Source: Selenomonadales bacterium (GTDB taxonomy: Bacteria; Bacillota; Negativicutes; Sporomusales; UBA7701). From it: 64,000 nucleotides of DNA. Positions 54,552-64,000 of the stretch are shown in pieces (position 1 is the stretch's first letter; the number at the start of each line of letters is the position of its first letter). The notes under the pieces are model-generated. The model was not told the DNA's origin and searched no databases. It worked only from the letters and a program-made list of their open reading frames with translations. Where the stretch lies: contig JARKNV010000016.1 in assembly GCA_029976065.1 (NCBI GenBank), positions 1 to 64,000 of the forward strand. The letters run 5' to 3'. The translations under genes and the position numbers were made by a program.

Positions 54552-54653
54552 ATGAAAATCCGTCTCGCAGGCTACGCCCCCGAAAGCGTCGTCGACGGTC
54601 CCGGCATCCGCTTCGTCCTCTTCGCCCAGGGCTGCGAACATGGCTGCCCCGGC
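54552..54653 (+). pseudogene. nrdG: 5' fragment of the resident nrdG, cut by an inserted element
   Basis: Starts ATG behind AAGGGTATCC, 13 bases after nrdD, in the GC-rich style of the host. It encodes MKIRLAGYAPESVVDGPGIR and continues to GCEHGCPG, i.e. two of the three radical-SAM cysteines. At the codon where the third Cys is expected the sequence turns AT-rich (TTATCTGTAAAAAG) and the frame ends at 54723-54725. The remaining four fifths of the gene is not in the window; it should lie beyond the far end of the element. Confidence 0.88.
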
Positions 54654-54724
54654 TTATCTGTAAAAAGTAGATATGAGACAACGAGGAGTAGAGACCCTGT
54701 ATTTATGAGTAATACAAAGCGTTG

Positions 54725-54927: not shown

Positions 54928-55437
54928 ATGATCCGGTATGCGAAAATATTACTAGAATCTGTAGTGGATGGCCCCGGAATTCGTATAGTTGCTTTCCTTC
55001 AAGGATGCGTCAGGCATTGTGAAGGGTGTCATAACCCCGAGCTTTTGCCAATGGCGGGAGGAAATGAGATTGGCGAACGAGAATTTGCCGAGTTTTTGCT
55101 GAGCAAAGTTAATGGTCTTCATCGCGGCATTACGTTTTCGGGTGGAGACCCGCTTGCACAGGCTGACGCGCTTACAAAGGTAATTTCAGTTATTAAACAA
55201 AAGAAACCTCAACTTAACATCTGGGTGTATACTGGATTTACTTTTGAAGCAGTAAAGCATCTCCCTGTTATGAAATTAATCGATGTATTGGTCGACGGAC
55301 CGTTCGTCATGGCGGAAAGGGATCTAAGCTTAGCATTTCGCGGTTCTTCTAATCAACGAATAATTGATGTGAAAACCTCGCTTGCTCTAAATCGGGCTGT
55401 CGAAATTAGCATCGATTACGAAGCTAAAGTAGGTTAA
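54928..55437 (+). CDS. nrdG: Replacement anaerobic reductase-activating protein NrdG (element-borne)
   Basis: 169 residues, a full-length class III reductase activase: radical-SAM cysteines 27, 31 and 34 in CVRHCEGCHNPE, GGDPLAQ motif and DVLVDGPF near the C-terminus. It generates the glycyl radical on NrdD. Its codons are AT-rich like the recombinase genes and unlike nrdD, and it differs from the host fragment (LLESVVDGPGIRIVAF against YAPESVVDGPGIRFVLF). GGTGGAGG precedes the ATG; it has its own promoter and terminator. It should restore the function lost by the insertion, though it must work with the host NrdD. Confidence 0.9.
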   Translation: MIRYAKILLESVVDGPGIRIVAFLQGCVRHCEGCHNPELLPMAGGNEIGEREFAEFLLSKVNGLHRGITFSGGDPLAQADALTKVISVIKQKKPQLNIWVYTGFTFEAVKHLPVMKLIDVLVDGPFVMAERDLSLAFRGSSNQRIIDVKTSLALNRAVEISIDYEAKVG

Positions 55438-55561: not shown

Positions 55562-56926
55562 ATGATTAGTAAAGAACAGATAGATATATATATTAATAAA
55601 ACGATATCTGGACTCCATTATGTTCGGCTTGTTAAAAATGAACAGGGCAAAATGAAAGGGTTTTTGTTGATTGATAATAATAACAAACCGATTCTCGATG
55701 TTTATCTATACATCAAAAGATGTATTATGCTGGGAGCGGCGTTTAATACATTTAAGCGATATATTTACGACCTGATGCATTTTTACGACTTTATGCTTAT
55801 CAACAACTTATCTCCCCGGTCAATAACGATAAACCATCTAAATAATTTTGCAGGGGTTTACCTTCGAATCGTTGATAAGACTTTCACAGCTCGCGATCCG
55901 CTCGAAAGGTCTATGTTGAAGTCAATACCTATTAGGAAAGTATACGAGTCATCGAAGACAGTGGATATAAGCTGGCAAGGCCCTGATGCCTTTGCGCTAA
56001 ATGCAATTCAAAGGATGTTATCCAGTGTTAAAGAATACTTCAGATTTTTGGTTGAGTCAAACAAGGTATCTCAGGCACAGTATGATTCTTTATTTTTCCG
56101 TAACTCGGCAATCTATATACTGAAAGCGTCTAAAGTTCCTTTTCGAAAAAACGAAACAACCCCGATAGAGTATTCGCAAGTATTTCAACCTGATGAAATG
56201 AAAACAATTTTTGAGTATCTGCAGAGAAGTAAAGAAAACCCGTGCTCAAAACTGTATTTTTATTTACTCAGAATCACGGGTATGCGAGAGAGCGATCCAA
56301 GGCGGCTTAGGTTTAGCTCGGTGGGTAAAAAGAAAAATGATGCCGGAACTATTACTTACGATTTCACATCATTGAAAGCAGATATTATGTTGATTGATCC
56401 CAAAGAGAAAATCTGGCGTATTCAAATAAAGTACCATCCAGATGATCCGATAGATTTGGCATTAAAACGGCGGAAGGAACGTTACGTAGAGTTCTCTGAT
56501 AAACTGGGCCAGTTCGAATTTCTAATGACAAGAGCCCTAATATATCGGGAAACAGTAATGAGGAGAAACGACAAAAATCATCCGTATTTATTAGTGGGAC
56601 GTAGCGGGAATCGCTTGCTTAGCCGTAATATGAGTGTATTATTTAACAAGGTGCTTCATCAGTGCGGATTAGAAAAACGAACAGGAAGAAGCCAATTGGT
56701 ACTGCATTCTTTTAGACACACTTTTGCTTCCAATTGGATAAAAAGGATTAATCAAGGGCTAAAAAAAGACATTGAACTGCATCTTTTAAGTAAAATTCTT
56801 GGACATGCATCTTATAAATATACATTGGAACAATATTGCCATTTTTTTGAGGAAGACTATCGAACGATTCTTAAAAGAATGGAGCACGTGCAATTTAATG
56901 ATTCCAGTGCATATCGCGTTGAATAA
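55562..56926 (+). CDS. Tyrosine recombinase 1 (TnpA-like)
   Basis: 454 residues. N-terminal SAM-like DNA-binding part (about 30-200) and C-terminal catalytic domain with first Arg in ITGMRESDPRRL (about 240), LHSFRHTFASNW (His-x-x-Arg near 382-385), LGHASYKYTLEQY with the His and nucleophile Tyr (about 428). All catalytic residues seem present. Starts the recombinase operon (AAGAAGGCCGG ahead of ATG) and overlaps the next gene. Confidence 0.9.
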   Translation: MISKEQIDIYINKTISGLHYVRLVKNEQGKMKGFLLIDNNNKPILDVYLYIKRCIMLGAAFNTFKRYIYDLMHFYDFMLINNLSPRSITINHLNNFAGVYLRIVDKTFTARDPLERSMLKSIPIRKVYESSKTVDISWQGPDAFALNAIQRMLSSVKEYFRFLVESNKVSQAQYDSLFFRNSAIYILKASKVPFRKNETTPIEYSQVFQPDEMKTIFEYLQRSKENPCSKLYFYLLRITGMRESDPRRLRFSSVGKKKNDAGTITYDFTSLKADIMLIDPKEKIWRIQIKYHPDDPIDLALKRRKERYVEFSDKLGQFEFLMTRALIYRETVMRRNDKNHPYLLVGRSGNRLLSRNMSVLFNKVLHQCGLEKRTGRSQLVLHSFRHTFASNWIKRINQGLKKDIELHLLSKILGHASYKYTLEQYCHFFEEDYRTILKRMEHVQFNDSSAYRVE

Positions 56927-59366
56927 GATTACCAGTTTATCAAAAGGACTAATCAGAACCATTTATGCTGGAGAATGGGAAAGACAAAATAGACGCCTCG
57001 CCGATGATCTAAAATGGATAGTCAAAAACATGGATTCTGTAGAGGCAATTATTGAGCTGCCACCTGATGAATGGCCAAACAGAAAGACTTTTCCAAAAAT
57101 AATCATGTTATTAGCTATCCATTATCATATTCCCATCAAGCCAGATACTGCAGCCCGGTTGCATTTGTTCAAAGCAAAAGAAATATGTCTTTTATTTGAG
57201 CTGATAAGTGACAAAGATGTAGCGTTGATAGAAAGAACGATAAAAGAAAAGCATCAGACCGACTGTTATGTTTTGGTTCTTAAAGCCATTATGGTTCTCG
57301 GCCTGAAAAATTTCTCGGAAATCACATTCGCGCATATAGAGCAATTAAGAATACAGATGAAAGGCATCATCGGACGTATTGAATATATCCTGTTTGCCCG
57401 AGCGGAAGAGAATCACGTGCCATATTTGGAGTTTCTAGATTTCGCAATGACTATATATTCTTTCAACATTAGAATGATAATGTGTTTGTACAGATCCGTT
57501 TTACGGCAATACCCAAAACATGAAGATTTCATTCTTAGCGCATCTCAAGCTGACATTTTGGGAAAACACTCATGCTTCATTTTTTGGGCACGATATCACA
57601 TGCGTCCGCTTGCTGGGAGGCAGTTTCCAGTCTTATTAGGAATACATAACGCTCCTCAAATATTGCAATACTTTAAGATGGCTGATTCCCCTTTTTTTGA
57701 AGTAGCGGCAAATAAGCTTAAAGGTTCAAGTAAACGGATAGAAGGATTTTATAAATTCGTTGTGCGGGCTATATTATATTTCGGTGCCAAGAATGTTTAT
57801 GATTTAGCTGAAATTAATTTGAGAGATTCTCAAATGGACAAGTATCAATCTAATAACGAAAGTTATGAAGTTATTCTTTATAAAATTTTGCAGTCAATTA
57901 CTAAAAAGGAAATTAAGTATCTTAGAAACTTGAAAATGTTTGGATATAATCAAAAGCAGCAACCGCAATTGACTACACCCAGTGACCCCTTAATAGAACA
58001 ATTCATAAATGTTAAATATAAAGATTGGACGAGAAATAAAGCAGCTGTGTTATTAAGTCTAAAGATTTTTGAGGAATGGAGTAGATATAAATATAATTTC
58101 TTCGGTATCGAGAATATTCCTGACACCGTTATACTCGAGTACAAGGAGTATTTGAAGGTACAAGAGTGTAGTCAGAGGGTCAAAAATTTGAGATATAACG
58201 TGGCCTGCATGTTTTTGAAGTGGTACAAGAAAGGACATCCCAATTCTAAGTTAATTATTCCCAAGAACTACACGCGCGAGTTCGTTGGTTTGGCTGTGCC
58301 AAGAATGTTTAATAATCGTGAACATGCAACAAAAATTCTTCGTGAAGCATTCAAATACGAACCGAAAGATGAGTATAGATACTTAGCAAAACAGGCGATA
58401 ATAATTGGCTTTGCCACTGGGATTAGGATAAGTGAAATCATTTGGTTAGGACCCGATTGTTACGTAGAAGGAGAAATTTTTGTACAAGTTAGAGAGAAAC
58501 AAAATCAAGTTAACAAACCTGCATCAGTCTATCCCTACGGTATTCCAGTCCTTCAGGAGCTCATTCATAGATTTGGATTAAGAACGAAATTCCAATGTTT
58601 TAATGAAAAGAAGAATCAACACTTCTATATTCTTTTCGAGATTGAACAACGCCCGTTAGAGCATCGCTACATTTACGAAGTTATGAGAGAGCTAATTACT
58701 AATGCGGGGCTGAGCGATGATTTGGGTAATGCTGTACACTATAAAAACATAAAAATGCATGCCGCCAGGCATCAAAAGCTTTCAGATATATACGAAATAA
58801 GCGATTGCAGTCTCACCGCAACCAAAATGGAAAGTGGTCATAGAAGTATCGAGATGTTAGAGGTATATACCCAGCAACAGCGTAACAAAATGATGCGAGA
58901 AATTGCTCAGGCTCTTGAACGCGGGCGTATTACCGGTAAAGGTGCCAGGATCGTGGAAGCTTTCTATTCGAGTACGATTTCACCAAATCGATTTACTGAA
59001 GTTCTTGCGAAAATGAATATTGCGGAGCATAAGTCAATAAATAGCTTAATGATAAAGGATTTGGGGTTTGGTTTCTGTATTGATAGTCAATGCTCCGCAG
59101 GGATATGTGTATCGTGTGATTGGTACTTTGCCTGTACAGAAAACATTCCGGACTTAATAAAACTGTATAAAAATAATCAAATACTTCTGGCTCTTTCGCT
59201 TGAACAAAGCTCAATAAATAAGGACAGTAGCGTAAATCTTGAAGTATTAACACTATCACTGTTATATGCCCGTAAATGGCTCGTTGACCTTGGGGTAAAT
59301 GAAGATTCACTTGAAAATTTAAGTGCTGAATCTGGAGATGAAAATGGATGCGGGATTGATACTTAA
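56898..59366 (+). CDS. Tyrosine recombinase 2 (large, TnpB-like)
   Basis: About 822 residues. The last third has the tyrosine-recombinase pattern: TGIRISEIIWLG (Arg near 515), MHAARHQKL (His-x-x-Arg near 620), SGHRSIEMLEVYTQQ (His and Tyr). A long N-terminal region of about 450 residues has no family I recognise. The C-terminus carries a Cys-rich stretch CIDSQCSAGICVSCDWYFAC typical of TnpB-type proteins. ATG 56898 overlaps the previous gene by 29 bases; the frame stays open upstream to 56799. It ends 20 or so bases inside the third recombinase gene. Confidence 0.82.
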   Translation: MIPVHIALNKITSLSKGLIRTIYAGEWERQNRRLADDLKWIVKNMDSVEAIIELPPDEWPNRKTFPKIIMLLAIHYHIPIKPDTAARLHLFKAKEICLLFELISDKDVALIERTIKEKHQTDCYVLVLKAIMVLGLKNFSEITFAHIEQLRIQMKGIIGRIEYILFARAEENHVPYLEFLDFAMTIYSFNIRMIMCLYRSVLRQYPKHEDFILSASQADILGKHSCFIFWARYHMRPLAGRQFPVLLGIHNAPQILQYFKMADSPFFEVAANKLKGSSKRIEGFYKFVVRAILYFGAKNVYDLAEINLRDSQMDKYQSNNESYEVILYKILQSITKKEIKYLRNLKMFGYNQKQQPQLTTPSDPLIEQFINVKYKDWTRNKAAVLLSLKIFEEWSRYKYNFFGIENIPDTVILEYKEYLKVQECSQRVKNLRYNVACMFLKWYKKGHPNSKLIIPKNYTREFVGLAVPRMFNNREHATKILREAFKYEPKDEYRYLAKQAIIIGFATGIRISEIIWLGPDCYVEGEIFVQVREKQNQVNKPASVYPYGIPVLQELIHRFGLRTKFQCFNEKKNQHFYILFEIEQRPLEHRYIYEVMRELITNAGLSDDLGNAVHYKNIKMHAARHQKLSDIYEISDCSLTATKMESGHRSIEMLEVYTQQQRNKMMREIAQALERGRITGKGARIVEAFYSSTISPNRFTEVLAKMNIAEHKSINSLMIKDLGFGFCIDSQCSAGICVSCDWYFACTENIPDLIKLYKNNQILLALSLEQSSINKDSSVNLEVLTLSLLYARKWLVDLGVNEDSLENLSAESGDENGCGIDT

Positions 59367-61365
59367 AAAGCAAGCACAAAATGAATTTTATTCTCTGGAT
59401 TATTATGAAGAAGTAGCGAATTTCGTTTTAAGAAGCGTTAATTCTGGACGCAAACGTATTTATATAAACAAAACAACATTTTTCCGCCAACTGTCCTCAA
59501 TAATTTCGGGAAAAATTGAAATGCAGGCTCCTCATGAAGAATTTCTCAAACGGAACAGAAACTTGTATTATACTGGCATAGTTTTGCATCTTACCGGACA
59601 CACAACACTTTCCCAAGAGTATTTAAACCAACATGAGCCTTTGCCAAAACAGTACTCTGGCGAAGAAGCGGCAGAATATCTTAGCATTGGAAAAATGCTT
59701 CATTATTCCAATACAGTTATAATACAGTCTCTTCGGGCACTGAACAAAGTGCTTCTCTGGGAACGAATTTCACTCAAAGATATTAGCATTGATAAAATTA
59801 TTGCTATCCCGGATTTTAATAAATGTATTCTTAACATTTTGACTGGAATGGGGATAATTCAGCGAATTCCTGCAAATACGAGTGTTATAGATTTTTCCTC
59901 TATCTTAATTTGTTCTCCGGAATTGGAAGAATTATATCTAGAATATCTGGGAAAAATTAGCGGCGATATTGAAGGGACAAAACGGAAAAAGGAAAAGGGC
60001 GCTCGATTCTTATTAGACTTTTTGGCGCTGCAAAATGTTACGAATATTAAACAGATTGATGTAAGTCACATTATCAACTTTATTAATTGGCTGAAAGACA
60101 AAGCGCCCGCTAAGTTTGGAAGTTCACGCTCAAGCGAAACTATTATTACTGATATATCCCGATTAAAATCGTTTTTGACTTTTATGGACGAAAAGCAATT
60201 ACTTTCCGAAAGCTTGAGAGAGTTTATCCTTGATCCCAATGAAGGTCTAGACAGTTTTCGGCAAAAAAAAATAGACAAGCGCCATAAACCGATACCAAAA
60301 AGCGAAATTGAAAGAATCGAACGTATGCTGTATGAGATGGATGAAACCGGAGAGAATTGGCTTGTGAAGAGAGCCCTAATACTCGCATATTTATCTGCTG
60401 GCCGGCCATCTGAGATTCTTTCCCTCTGGTTGGATTGTATTCGCGGCACTCCAGAAGTACCCTTGTTATATTTTCACCGAGGAAAGCATTTTACTGAAAG
60501 ATACGTTCCGATGACCGAAGAAATGTCGAGAATTGTACAAGAAGTATTAAACAACGGCCTATTAAGACTACCAATAGAAATCGAATACGACAATTATTCC
60601 GTGAAGAGGCTTTTCGGTTACCGGGGGAACATCCCGACGAATGCCCATCTAAATAGAGTGTTTAATAGACTACAACTATCTGCTTCGCCACCTCTTGTTA
60701 GCTCTCGGGGGCAGGGGAAATATAGTATTTACGTCCTTCGCAGGATAAGGATTACAAAATGGCTCGAAGCTGGCATTCCGGAGACCGAGGTGGCCCAAAT
60801 GGCGGGACACTTTTCCGGTGTCGATAATCACAATGCGTATTTGGTAGGAGCCGAAACGCGAAAGATTAATTGCATGAGGGCTTATAACAAATTCTATAAG
60901 GAACAATTGAATCCCTCGGAAGAGAATAGTTATGGGGACAAGCCTCTTGAAACCGTTTTTTCTGCAGAGAATTTTATAGCGGAATTAGCTGCTGTTGCCG
61001 AAAGAATTGAAAACACAGGACTACGAAACGTATTGATGGAAGAAGTGATGCTGAGGCAACCGGAAGTTTTACTTCCCGTCCCCTGTGGATTCTGTATGTA
61101 TGGATCTGAATCACCTTCCTGTAACCTTATAGATAAATGCCTATCATGCAAAAAAATACTAATAGATTTGGAACAAGTGAGGCAGTGGGCTGAACGGCTG
61201 TATAAGATAAGAAAGCGTCAGGAAAAAAAGGGAATGGCAGTATTTTTGAGTAAAACCGATGTTATCTTATCACGGCTAAAAGCACTATGCATTACGAAAC
61301 TAAGCATGACTCTTAAAGAGATTTCGGAGCAGTTCAAGGAAATAAAAGTCAAGTGTGAAAACTAG
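59344..61365 (+). CDS. Tyrosine recombinase 3 (TnpB-like, C-terminal zinc finger)
   Basis: 673 residues. Catalytic part has SAGRPSEILSLW (first Arg near 365) and MAGHFSGVDNHNAYL (His and Tyr); the usual His-x-x-Arg box reads YVLRRIRITKW, so the first His is replaced, a change seen in some TnpB proteins. The C-terminus has CGFCMYGSESPSC and CLSCKK, a likely zinc site. ATG 59344 is preferred, GGAG six bases upstream; GTG 59323 is the upstream alternative. Overlaps gene 2 by 23 bases, so all three are coupled. Confidence 0.85.
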   Translation: MDAGLILKKQAQNEFYSLDYYEEVANFVLRSVNSGRKRIYINKTTFFRQLSSIISGKIEMQAPHEEFLKRNRNLYYTGIVLHLTGHTTLSQEYLNQHEPLPKQYSGEEAAEYLSIGKMLHYSNTVIIQSLRALNKVLLWERISLKDISIDKIIAIPDFNKCILNILTGMGIIQRIPANTSVIDFSSILICSPELEELYLEYLGKISGDIEGTKRKKEKGARFLLDFLALQNVTNIKQIDVSHIINFINWLKDKAPAKFGSSRSSETIITDISRLKSFLTFMDEKQLLSESLREFILDPNEGLDSFRQKKIDKRHKPIPKSEIERIERMLYEMDETGENWLVKRALILAYLSAGRPSEILSLWLDCIRGTPEVPLLYFHRGKHFTERYVPMTEEMSRIVQEVLNNGLLRLPIEIEYDNYSVKRLFGYRGNIPTNAHLNRVFNRLQLSASPPLVSSRGQGKYSIYVLRRIRITKWLEAGIPETEVAQMAGHFSGVDNHNAYLVGAETRKINCMRAYNKFYKEQLNPSEENSYGDKPLETVFSAENFIAELAAVAERIENTGLRNVLMEEVMLRQPEVLLPVPCGFCMYGSESPSCNLIDKCLSCKKILIDLEQVRQWAERLYKIRKRQEKKGMAVFLSKTDVILSRLKALCITKLSMTLKEISEQFKEIKVKCEN

Positions 61366-61374
61366 AAGGCGAGT

Positions 61375-61782
61375 GTGGTCCTAATGAGTAAAAGAAGAAT
61401 AGTAATAGAGCAGCCCCGAAGAGGCCAAGCCGGCGCACAGGCATTACGTCGCCATAAGCAGGAAGTTGTTGCCGAAAATAAGCGGAAGGTGCTCGAAGGG
61501 TTAAAGCGTCTTAAGGATCAGGGAATACCGTTAGTTGTGGAGGAATTTGCTCGCAACATAGAGTTGTCGATATCAACCCTCAACAGACCACCATATTCAT
61601 TTCTAATAAAGCAATATCGAGATGACGAAAGAACATGGTTGGCACCAAATACTGCCCATACTATTGCGGAACTTACGGCAAAGTTACGCAAAGCTGAGGA
61701 AGATCGTAAAATAGCTGAAGAGAAATATCTGCGATTAAAAAAAGAAATTACCTCGTTCCATAGGTTATTTGACCAGTTATAA
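61375..61782 (+). CDS. TnpC/DUF6262-like accessory protein
   Basis: 135 residues. Basic N-terminus, a DIRT-like HTH region (VVEEFARNIELSISTLNRPPY), and a C-terminal coiled coil from about 95 on (ELTAKLRKAEEDRKIAEEKY). This is the layout of TnpC of Tn554 and the DUF6262 group, which orients or stimulates transposition. GTG 61375 has AAGG at the right distance; ATG 61384 is the alternative. Nine bases after recombinase 3, last gene of the recombinase operon. Confidence 0.82.
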   Translation: MVLMSKRRIVIEQPRRGQAGAQALRRHKQEVVAENKRKVLEGLKRLKDQGIPLVVEEFARNIELSISTLNRPPYSFLIKQYRDDERTWLAPNTAHTIAELTAKLRKAEEDRKIAEEKYLRLKKEITSFHRLFDQL

Positions 61783-61864
61783 TAATGCGCTATTTCTTTC
61801 GTTTCCGATCTGCAATTTTTTGTTACGAGACCTAGCCCCCAATTAAATTTCTCCATAAAGAAAA

Positions 61865-61897
61865 AGTAGACTGGAATATTCCAGCCTACTTTTTTTG
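61865..61897. terminator. Bidirectional terminator between recombinase operon and XRE gene
   Basis: AGTAGACTGGAATATTCCAGCCTACT with one mismatch pair, followed by seven T on the plus strand and A run on the other side; overlaps the XRE stop codon. Confidence 0.88.
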
Positions 61898-62140
61898 CTC
61901 AGATTCAAACAGCAGGTTTGATGGTTCCATATCTAATCCTTTAGCTATCAAAAATAGAACTTCGAGAGAAAATGACTTGTAGCTTTGGGCCGCTTCAATC
62001 TTAGAAAGATAACTTTTACTTATTCCAATTTTATCTGCAAAAAAATCTTGTGTCCAACCACGTTTAGTTCTATAAAACGCGATCCGGCGGCCGATAGCCC
62101 GGTATCGCTCAGTAAACTCGCCCTTGGCCAAATGGCTCAC
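61886..62140 (-). CDS. XRE-family transcriptional regulator
   Basis: 84 residues; one Cro/C1-type HTH (about 16-72): GRRIAFYRTKRGWTQDFFADKIGISKSYLSKIEA. It probably represses itself and the divergent gene through the palindrome at 62173-62197. GAGGTGAGCC precedes the start on the minus strand. Confidence 0.9.
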   Translation of the reverse strand: MSHLAKGEFTERYRAIGRRIAFYRTKRGWTQDFFADKIGISKSYLSKIEAAQSYKSFSLEVLFLIAKGLDMEPSNLLFESEQKK

Positions 62141-62163
62141 CTCAATATAATTGTAGAGCCATT

Positions 62164-62622
62164 ATGACAAGCCATGTTGCACCTATGGTGCAACATGTGG
62201 TATATTCATTGTGTTATTTGCTTTCCCAGAAGTGGTGGGATAAAGATATCTTTCAAATGGGAAGGAAATATTTTGATAAGAGTTTGCCCCGGATCGATGT
62301 AGCTTTTAGAGTTAGACATAGCAGAGGAGGGGCATTAATGTGGCTAGTTGATGCTTTGGTCCAGGAGTACGTCAGAGCAGGCGTAAAAATTGAGGCCTAT
62401 GAAAAAAAACTTGATGATAGTAACATAGATGAATACATTAGAAGGGAATTCAGGGGGTTTCTGGTATTCCTATACCGGCAGCGCAGGTTAATTGAAAAAG
62501 CTTTGGCGGTCAATGGGTACGACCTCGAAAAGTCATTGCTAGAGAGGACGGCCGAAGACGCAATCACCAAGGCTTACAGGGATGGATTTGTCACGCCCCA
62601 TGGCGATGTTGATAAAGAATGA
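62164..62622 (+). CDS. Hypothetical protein (start uncertain)
   Basis: Open frame of 152 codons. The 5' part (62164-62206) coincides with the operator/promoter, so true translation probably begins later, perhaps TTG 62209 or ATG 62257; no good ribosome site is visible for any. The protein from about residue 32 is a mixed charged helical sequence (FRVRHSRGGALMWLVDALVQ, EYIRREFRGFLVFLYRQR) with no family I recognise. Divergent from the XRE gene and upstream of the OLD ATPase, it is a candidate part of the same cargo module. Confidence 0.55.
   Translation: MTSHVAPMVQHVVYSLCYLLSQKWWDKDIFQMGRKYFDKSLPRIDVAFRVRHSRGGALMWLVDALVQEYVRAGVKIEAYEKKLDDSNIDEYIRREFRGFLVFLYRQRRLIEKALAVNGYDLEKSLLERTAEDAITKAYRDGFVTPHGDVDKE
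62173..62206 (+). promoter_or_regulatory. Palindromic operator embedded in a promoter
   Basis: CATGTTGCACC-TAT-GGTGCAACATG is a perfect 11-bp-arm palindrome. TTGCAC (62177-62182), 18 bases and TATATT (62201-62206) form a plus-strand promoter, with the palindrome filling the -35 and spacer, so a bound repressor would block it. The divergent XRE gene is the likely source of the repressor. Confidence 0.65.
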
Positions 62623-62630
62623 AGTAAAAC

Positions 62631-62777
62631 ATAGAAAAGGGCAGATGGATACACCAGAAGTACGTAGCTTCCTTGGAGGGCTCCGCCCTGGCGCTAGAGG
62701 TATTAACGTTTCTACGGGCGGCTGAAAGAGTCAAATACGAAGGAGAGAGAGCAAATAATCCCCCCGATGTTGATTGA
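62631..62777 (+). CDS. Possible small gene or gene remnant, no normal start
   Basis: A frame of 48 codons reading IEKGRWIHQKYVASLEGSAL and LEVLTFLRAAERVKYEGERA has a protein-like amphipathic pattern. It begins 8 bases after the preceding stop in another frame and has only ATA or TTG as start candidates. It may be a broken or frameshifted piece of an element gene. Weak. Confidence 0.25.
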   Translation: MEKGRWIHQKYVASLEGSALALEVLTFLRAAERVKYEGERANNPPDVD

Positions 62778-62904
62778 CTCCGAACTATTGGTAGACCTAG
62801 TTGTGTAATCGATCCGGATACCCGGGCTTTAATTAGACTGAAAAAAATATACTGGCCGAGCTAAATTTTTCTTATCCTGACAGGAAATGGTTCGACAATA
62901 ATAG

Positions 62905-62948
62905 AAGCTGCACATAGCTACATTTTGTAAGCTGTGGCAGCTTTTGTC
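62905..62948 (+). terminator. Terminator-like stem-loop upstream of the OLD gene
   Basis: AAGCTGC (62905-62911) and GCAGCTT (62938-62944) with inner AGCT pairs, then TTTG. Separates the hypothetical gene from what follows. Confidence 0.55.
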
Positions 62949-63000
62949 GTTTCGCCGATATTATGGAATATGGCTTCAGAAAAGGCAGAATGGTTAGTCT

Positions 63001-63090
63001 TTAGGGGTGAAGGAAAATCTCTGACAAACGGGTGAAATCCAAGGAATCCGCGAACATTTCGCTAGTAACGAAGGTTACTGGCTACGTATA
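63001..63090 (+). ncRNA. Structured non-coding stretch ahead of the OLD gene
   Basis: No start-anchored coding frame. Two tandem hairpins: GCGAA-CAT-TTCGC (63050-63062) and AGTAAC-GAAG-GTTACT (63064-63079), preceded by a purine-rich segment with GGGTGAAGGAAAATC and GGGTGAAATCCAAGGAATC, a near-repeat. Could be a regulatory leader or a small RNA of the defence module; the class is not recognised. Confidence 0.3.
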
Positions 63091-63121
63091 AACCATCTTA
63101 TTAATTTGAGAGGGTGAAATC

Positions 63122-64000
63122 GTGAAGCTAAATAGAGTAAAGGTAAATAATTACCGCACGCTGGACGGTCTAGAGATCAAACTACATGATTCATGTAATT
63201 TCCTTGTTGGCGAAAATAATCTCGGCAAATCTAATTTTTTAGATCTTCTTTATACGATTTTTAGTGAATATAAGTTTCGCGAAACTGATTTTCAAGATGA
63301 AAATAATCCTATTTTCATAGAAATCACTTTTGCCCTAAATGATGTTGAAATAGGTATATTACGTGATTTATTTGATCCACTTGATGACAGCAAGCTAAAC
63401 TTGATCGTTGAACAAGCCTCTCCTGATGACAACATTGTATTCGTTCATAAGGAAACCAATCAAAACATACCGGCATCGGAAGCTAGATGCCTTAATTATA
63501 TAGGATACGATTCTCTTAGAAATCCTTCCAATGAATTGAGCTTTACTGGTAAAAAAGGTGTTGCGGCATTTCTTAATTTCCTGGTAAACAATTACCTGGA
63601 GACTAACAGTCTTATTAATACCTCCTTTCTTAAGGAAGTGGAACTGGAAAAACTAATTACATATCTTAATGGCAAACTCAATAAGGTTAAGCCTCTTAAA
63701 GATTTCTCCATAAAAGCGATGATTGATCCCGAACCACAAAATATTCTGACCAAACTAGTTTTACTATGTGACAGTAATAAGTTGAGTTTGACAGAAGTTG
63801 GCTGCAGCGGCGTTCAATTTTCGGCTCTAATTATACTTTCCATCCTGGAAAGAATTCTGCGTATTAATAAAAGCAAATTAAAAAAGAACATATTAGATGA
63901 TGGTAACGGTAAAAAACATATACCTGTCGTTCTCGGGGTAGATGAACCCGAAATTCATTTGCATCCTTTCATGCAACGCACGCTCATCAAATATTTGATA
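63122..64000 (+). CDS. OLD-family AAA ATPase, likely anti-phage (3' end outside window)
   Basis: 293 residues visible, frame open at the window end. N-terminal KVNNYRTLDGLEIKL strand pair, Walker A GENNLGKS (about 30-37), an ABC-like signature in GCSGVQFSAL (about 240) and Walker B VVLGVDEPEIHLHP (about 275). This is the OLD/RecF-SMC-like ATPase type found in GajA, PARIS AriA, retron-linked and class 1 OLD nucleases. The TOPRIM nuclease half and any partner gene would lie beyond 64000. GTG start behind GAGAGGGTG. Confidence 0.85.
   Translation, partial: MKLNRVKVNNYRTLDGLEIKLHDSCNFLVGENNLGKSNFLDLLYTIFSEYKFRETDFQDENNPIFIEITFALNDVEIGILRDLFDPLDDSKLNLIVEQASPDDNIVFVHKETNQNIPASEARCLNYIGYDSLRNPSNELSFTGKKGVAAFLNFLVNNYLETNSLINTSFLKEVELEKLITYLNGKLNKVKPLKDFSIKAMIDPEPQNILTKLVLLCDSNKLSLTEVGCSGVQFSALIILSILERILRINKSKLKKNILDDGNGKKHIPVVLGVDEPEIHLHPFMQRTLIKYLI

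Follow-up and report, generated by a model that had tools for sequence, protein, structure and literature searches.

The OLD-type ATPase gene at the end of the stretch of DNA analyzed here (the window) is very probably gajA, the first gene of a Gabija anti-phage system (gajA-gajB) within the cargo of a 26.6-kb three-recombinase island that lies in nrdG and brings a substitute nrdG of its own. This reading is based on gene content, the integrity of domains and residues, the island ends, the interrupted and empty insertion sites, and base composition, from which we infer mobility, the function of both nrdG and Gabija, and regulation. Gabija is among the commonest anti-phage systems, and the defense cargo appears to be an ordinary system of known type; the unusual part appears to be the apparent nrdG swap, of which there is one clear case. 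The importance of the locus lies in the carrier rather than in Gabija: it adds a family of three-recombinase islands with varied defense-type cargo and one case in which the gene broken by the island appears to be replaced by an island-borne one.

The window is positions 1 to 64,000 of a contig of 111,858 bases. Beyond the window, the sequence was followed as far as contig position 100,000, and positions above 64,000 are contig positions in the same numbering as the window. For comparison, 380 genomes sampled from the same class were used.

The gajA and gajB genes

The gajA gene is located on the plus strand at positions 63122 to 64867 and encodes 581 residues, 293 codons being within the window (63122 to 64000). 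It overlaps by 11 bp the gajB gene (contig 64857 to 66659), which encodes a UvrD-like helicase of 600 residues. Both proteins gave full-length best matches to the Gabija models of PADLOC (E = 3.5e-196 for GajA, residues 1 to 574; E = 9.9e-219 for GajB). Pfam searches detected AAA_15 and OLD-like TOPRIM (PF20469; E = 3e-18) domains in GajA and the UvrD N and UvrD C domains in GajB. The preliminary description, which was limited to the window, had recognized an OLD-family ATPase at its end and had suggested the core of an OLD/TOPRIM defense system (Gabija, PARIS, or retron type), to be checked by seeing whether the downstream sequence encodes a TOPRIM domain and, among other candidates, a UvrD-like helicase; the ATPase gene is complete beyond the window, and both features were found there.

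The TOPRIM active site of GajA is complete, residues E386, G417, D440, and D442 corresponding to E379, G409, D432, and D434 of the TOPRIM active site of Bacillus cereus GajA (PMC10781630). These four residues are invariant across an alignment of 27 GajA/OLD proteins. The Walker A motif of GajA (GENNLGKSN) and the helicase motifs of GajB (APAGYGKT and VDEFQD) are intact. An AlphaFold2 model of GajA reached a pLDDT of 82.6 with 27 sequences (55 with three sequences). The predicted fold (residues 1 to 575) matched the Gabija GajA structure 8sm3 (Z = 19.7; 400 residues; 3.9 Å) and, equally well, the OLD nuclease of T. scotoductus (6p74; Z = 20.5), and the nuclease of retron Eco8 was likewise similar to the model. 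Since the fold fits Gabija GajA and OLD nucleases alike, it cannot separate Gabija by itself, whereas the adjoining GajB does.

The resemblance to the Eco8 and T. scotoductus nucleases could be taken to indicate a stand-alone OLD nuclease or a retron or PARIS component, as could the single OLD-type proteins, 27 to 31% identical to GajA and without an adjoining GajB match, that are encoded by many genomes of the class. Such an identity is nevertheless most improbable for the ATPase, whose gene overlaps that of a UvrD helicase with GajB as its best match and whose closest relatives also have an adjoining GajB, as found in the two nearest pairs of the class (34 to 36% identity for GajA and 34 to 41% for GajB). 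A retron or PARIS identity was rejected because no reverse transcriptase or AriB-like gene was detected from gajA to the far end. The OLD-type ATPase and the UvrD-like protein are, as judged from their sequences, a complete two-gene Gabija system of a known anti-phage type with predicted defense activity.

Genes and noncoding DNA adjoining gajA-gajB

Upstream of gajA, the gene at 61886 to 62140 on the minus strand encodes an XRE-family regulator of 84 residues, as initially proposed (Pfam HTH_3, PF01381; E = 7e-13). A terminator-like 17-bp inverted repeat (61861 to 61894) is located between it and the last gene of the recombinase module. The operator thought to be shared by the XRE gene and the divergent hypothetical gene is real, since a perfect palindrome, CATGTTGCACC-TAT-GGTGCAACATG (62173 to 62197), overlaps a promoter-like site on the plus strand (TTGCAC-18-TATATT). 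For the hypothetical gene, the plus-strand frame described at 62164 to 62622 was confirmed, although the first third of it is probably noncoding. A start at 62164 (152 residues) is doubtful because the palindrome and the promoter-like -10 are inside the longer frame and because a ribosome site, AGGAGGGG, is found just before the ATG at 62338. The true start is probably at 62338, giving a plus-strand gene for 94 residues (62338 to 62622), and the best homologue, from the same genus (50% identity), begins at residue 59 of the longer frame. The 94-residue protein has no Pfam match and belongs to no family; its relatives were found in one congener only, in unrelated surroundings. At the operator, the XRE protein would control its own gene and the gene encoding the 94-residue protein, neither of which would be part of Gabija.

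The following ~500 bases (62623 to 63121), previously noted as a structured stretch of noncoding or broken DNA, are noncoding. Their second half, directly upstream of gajA (62800 to 63121, plus strand), is stably folded relative to shuffled sequence (z = -4.2, versus -2.5 to +1.3 for background windows), and part of this stability comes from a terminator-like hairpin at 62929 to 62943. For 62623 to 63121, there was no match to an Rfam family, and no convincing DNA relative was found. Until shown otherwise, we provisionally read this stretch as a terminator and a leader. On the other side, an HD-domain gene (contig 66668 to 67231) begins 8 bp behind gajB. Relatives of the HD protein (42 to 47% identity) are encoded by Subdoligranulum and Methanomethylovorans plasmids, without Gabija nearby.

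The proximity of all these parts, the stable folding of the stretch before gajA, and the 8-bp distance between gajB and the HD gene could be taken to indicate an extended Gabija system including the XRE regulator, the 94-residue protein, a structured RNA, and the HD protein. We regard this as improbable, since the two nearest gajA-gajB pairs lack homologues of the XRE, 94-residue, and HD proteins, since the relatives of the 94-residue and HD proteins do not adjoin gajAB in the congener or on the two plasmids, and since the structured RNA has no detected relative. Conservation of 62164 to 63121 together with the ATPase, suggested earlier as a check, was therefore not borne out, and the initial view that the small upstream protein is not a known partner holds, this protein being absent beside Gabija elsewhere.

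The remaining cargo (contig 67440 to 81006) is a catabolic block. It encodes a sigma-54 activator, a cyclase, a soluble chemoreceptor-like protein, an amidohydrolase, an aldehyde ferredoxin oxidoreductase with a ferredoxin, a BKACE enzyme, an aldehyde dehydrogenase, an MFS transporter, CoA-transferase A/B, and a thiolase. The thiolase gene, which is the last of the cargo, contains an in-frame TAA (contig 80776 to 80778) within an apparent N-E-A-F-A motif of the family and is open again behind it, owing either to a broken gene or to a sequencing error.

Island ends and interrupted nrdG

The island spans 26,604 bp (contig 54654 to 81257). Sequence inspection and tblastn identified the 5' part of the host nrdG gene directly behind nrdD (54552 to 54653, plus strand; codons 1 to 34, ending with GCEHGCPG) and the 3' part at the other end of the island (contig 81258 onward, starting with CHNPQTH). 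Joining the two halves restores an unbroken NrdG of 176 residues, and nrdG is uninterrupted in four congeners (82 to 92% identity). The insertion is located between the last two Cys codons of the iron-sulfur motif CxxxCxxC, beside the last one (GGC TGC CCC GGC, island, TGC CAC AAC CCC). The left end of the island, TTATCTGTAAAAAGT (54654 to 54668), matches the inverted right end, TTATCCGTAAAAAGT (contig 81237 to 81251), at 14 of 15 positions. Spacers of 6 bp are present at both junctions, CCCGGC on the left and AAGGAA on the right, between the right end and the TGC of the host. Our guess is that AAGGAA could be the footprint of the nrdG gene of an earlier host with Lys-Glu between the cysteines; it stays a guess because such codons are rare (2 of ~77 NrdG genes seen). 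The GC content of the left half of the island is 0.36 to 0.43, versus 0.53 to 0.70 for the left flank, and climbs toward the right end.

The anatomy of the locus, with gajAB in a recombinase island, matching ends, and a broken host gene, supports the assignment of gajAB as cargo of a recombinase-bearing integrative island, which may be mobile, and agrees with the preliminary proposal that the element moves defense genes.

Recombinase module and related islands

Three overlapping genes (55562 to 61365) followed by a gene encoding a small coiled-coil protein form the recombinase module, on the plus strand. Recombinases A (ginA-like; 55562 to 56926; 454 residues), B (ginB-like; 56799 to 59366; listed as 855 residues), and C (ginC-like; 59323 to 61365; 680 residues) are tyrosine recombinases according to PF00589. 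The alignment indicated that the catalytic residues are kept in A (RHRY residues present) and B and that Tyr replaces the His of HxxR in C. The start of the large recombinase B is probably further in, since its relatives have 671 to 695 residues. The ginD/TnpC-like coiled-coil protein (61375 to 61782; at most 135 residues) is 28 to 41% identical to its positional counterparts in two related islands. The three recombinases and the coiled-coil protein would together insert the island between the last two Cys codons of the nrdG motif.

The two related islands, in genomes G303 and G074 of the class sample, share this four-gene module and its gene order, with 27 to 35% identity for recombinases A and B, and their ends start with similar TTAT/TATCT motifs. 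The G303 island splits a DinG/Rad3-like helicase gene, carries type III restriction-modification genes and a candidate-defense ATPase detected by PADLOC, and contains no copy of its own target gene. The G074 island splits dinB and carries E1-E2/JAB defense-type genes, a metallo-beta-lactamase-fold-like gene, and a Y-family polymerase gene. This polymerase (L015:669-1946, L014:4482-5507) is a possible second substitute for a target gene, which gives only a hint of dinB replacement. Searches for recombinase relatives yielded one fragment in the genome contigs and the two islands in the class sample (27 to 28% identity). No close relative was found in the phylum sample or in viral contigs, and plasmids contained only distant integrases. 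Two plasmid loci, in Prescottella and Shinella, were inspected and are not three-recombinase islands of the same kind. On the Prescottella equi plasmid (L071:4415-12066), two recombinase genes are near genes for an AAA ATPase and for an ATP-dependent helicase, which may form a further Gabija-like pair that is mobile.

The island-borne nrdG gene

The island contains its own nrdG gene at its left end (54928 to 55437, plus strand; 169 residues), with an intact CxxxCxxC motif and a score above the cutoff of NCBIfam TIGR02491 (146.5 versus 126.1 bits). The product is 45% identical to the host NrdG, indicating that the gene is no recent copy of the host gene, and ~51% identical to NrdG elsewhere in the order. 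Its GC3 (0.37) is the same as in the recombinase genes (0.36 to 0.39), versus 0.79 to 0.86 for host nrdD and nrdG, and thus the island nrdG and the recombinase genes have probably traveled together. The gene has the same direction as host nrdD and starts 390 bp behind it. The only structure seen between the insertion point and the island nrdG is a 9-bp hairpin, which is not followed by a T run, so that read-through into the gene is possible. No intact nrdG other than the island gene was found in the assembly, a statement limited by the 88% completeness and 6% contamination of that assembly. Among viral contigs, a few NrdG relatives were near a single integrase and none adjoined a three-recombinase set. 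A literature search on nrdG as a target or on target-gene replacement returned nothing relevant, with little weight since subscription papers were outside its scope.

These features suggest that insertion would destroy the host activase of the class III ribonucleotide reductase and that the island nrdG, which has the orientation of host nrdD and comes next after it, would take over. The island thus appears to break the host nrdG gene and to supply a putative substitute. A class II, B12-dependent ribonucleotide reductase is encoded by the same genome; the cell may therefore survive without the class III enzyme, nrdG may be dispensable, and the substitute may be useful rather than vital. If the loss of nrdG is tolerated in this way, the island nrdG might be a chance passenger, as might also be argued from the G303 island, which breaks its target and brings no copy. 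We consider this unlikely, though less so than the alternatives weighed above for gajAB, because passenger and target are the same gene, because the island copy is located beside the recombinase genes in the direction of nrdD, and because it retains an intact motif and the base composition of the recombinase genes.

Beyond this locus, gene swap may define a class of recombinase islands that target the Cys-motif codons of important host genes, each bringing a divergent, co-oriented replacement, a tentative proposal that we hold to be possible but not probable. If it were true, the host would depend on the island, since loss by sloppy excision or deletion would cost it the gene, and the defense cargo would be stabilized much as by an addiction module. 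In the three-recombinase family, the cargo differs (Gabija, type III restriction-modification, or E1-E2/JAB genes) and the insertion sites are in the middle of conserved genes (nrdG, dinG-like, and dinB). Substitution as a strategy would explain both the use of highly conserved, otherwise costly targets and the persistence of the islands. Our searches recovered no closely related island, so that the case for mobility and for a substitute gene as a regular feature comes from one clear example. The anatomy of target-gene replacement by a divergent island copy is well supported; as a function or a general habit, it is unproven.

Comparison with known systems

Gabija was described as the GajA-GajB system of B. 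cereus VD045, in which the two proteins assemble as a 4:4 complex that cuts phage DNA once activated in infection (PMC10781630, PMC8136825). The locus resembles that system in its two-gene order, in the combination of an OLD ATPase-TOPRIM nuclease and a UvrD-like helicase, in the catalytic residues, and in the predicted fold. It differs in being far in sequence from the tested system (~18% structure-based identity between the GajA proteins) and in being known here from sequence and predicted fold. By analogy, the ATPase-nuclease GajA and the helicase GajB would act as in VD045, their complex cutting phage DNA upon activation during infection.

The GInts contain three tyrosine recombinase genes and a small fourth gene, are bounded by direct imperfect attL/attR repeats of 10 to 17 nucleotides, and are excised as circles, a reaction that needs all four genes (PMC5385486). 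In E. coli, GInts are known carriers of defense genes (PMC10121019). Like the GInts, the island has, at one end, three tyrosine recombinase genes and a small fourth gene, together with variable cargo that includes defense genes, precise insertion, and a 6-bp spacer; as read from the sequence, the cargo lies directly behind the fourth gene and the far end is short and AT rich. Unlike the GInts, it has inverted 15-bp ends (14/15) instead of direct repeats, is inserted in the middle of a gene, and comes with a copy of its target gene. Inspection of both island junctions revealed no direct repeat of 10 to 17 nucleotides common to the two. The reference for comparison was the GInt at the ssb end of E. 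coli EC-16-35, with integrase-type A and B, hypothetical C, small D, and avs4. Similarity according to hhalign was very weak (84% probability for A-A, 7% for C-C, and none for B and D). The weak similarity and the lack of direct repeats led us to call the carrier GInt-like rather than to file it as a GInt. The EC-16-35 element itself (L074:7572-19700) contains avs4 and an AbiGi-like gene, and the same set is present in FDAARGOS_1264 (L075).

Tn554 has two tyrosine recombinases, TnpC, imperfect inverted ends, and a 6-bp footprint, and RIT elements share only three recombinases, with no fourth gene (PMC10214605). The island is like Tn554 in its tyrosine recombinases, its TnpC-like small protein, its 6-bp footprint, and the imperfect match of its inverted ends, and unlike it in having three recombinase genes instead of two. 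With RIT elements, it has the three recombinases in common, and it differs from them in having a small fourth gene, in an order conserved in the two related islands. We know of no target-gene replacement in the Tn554 family or in RIT elements. The island is a previously undescribed form of a known kind of carrier.
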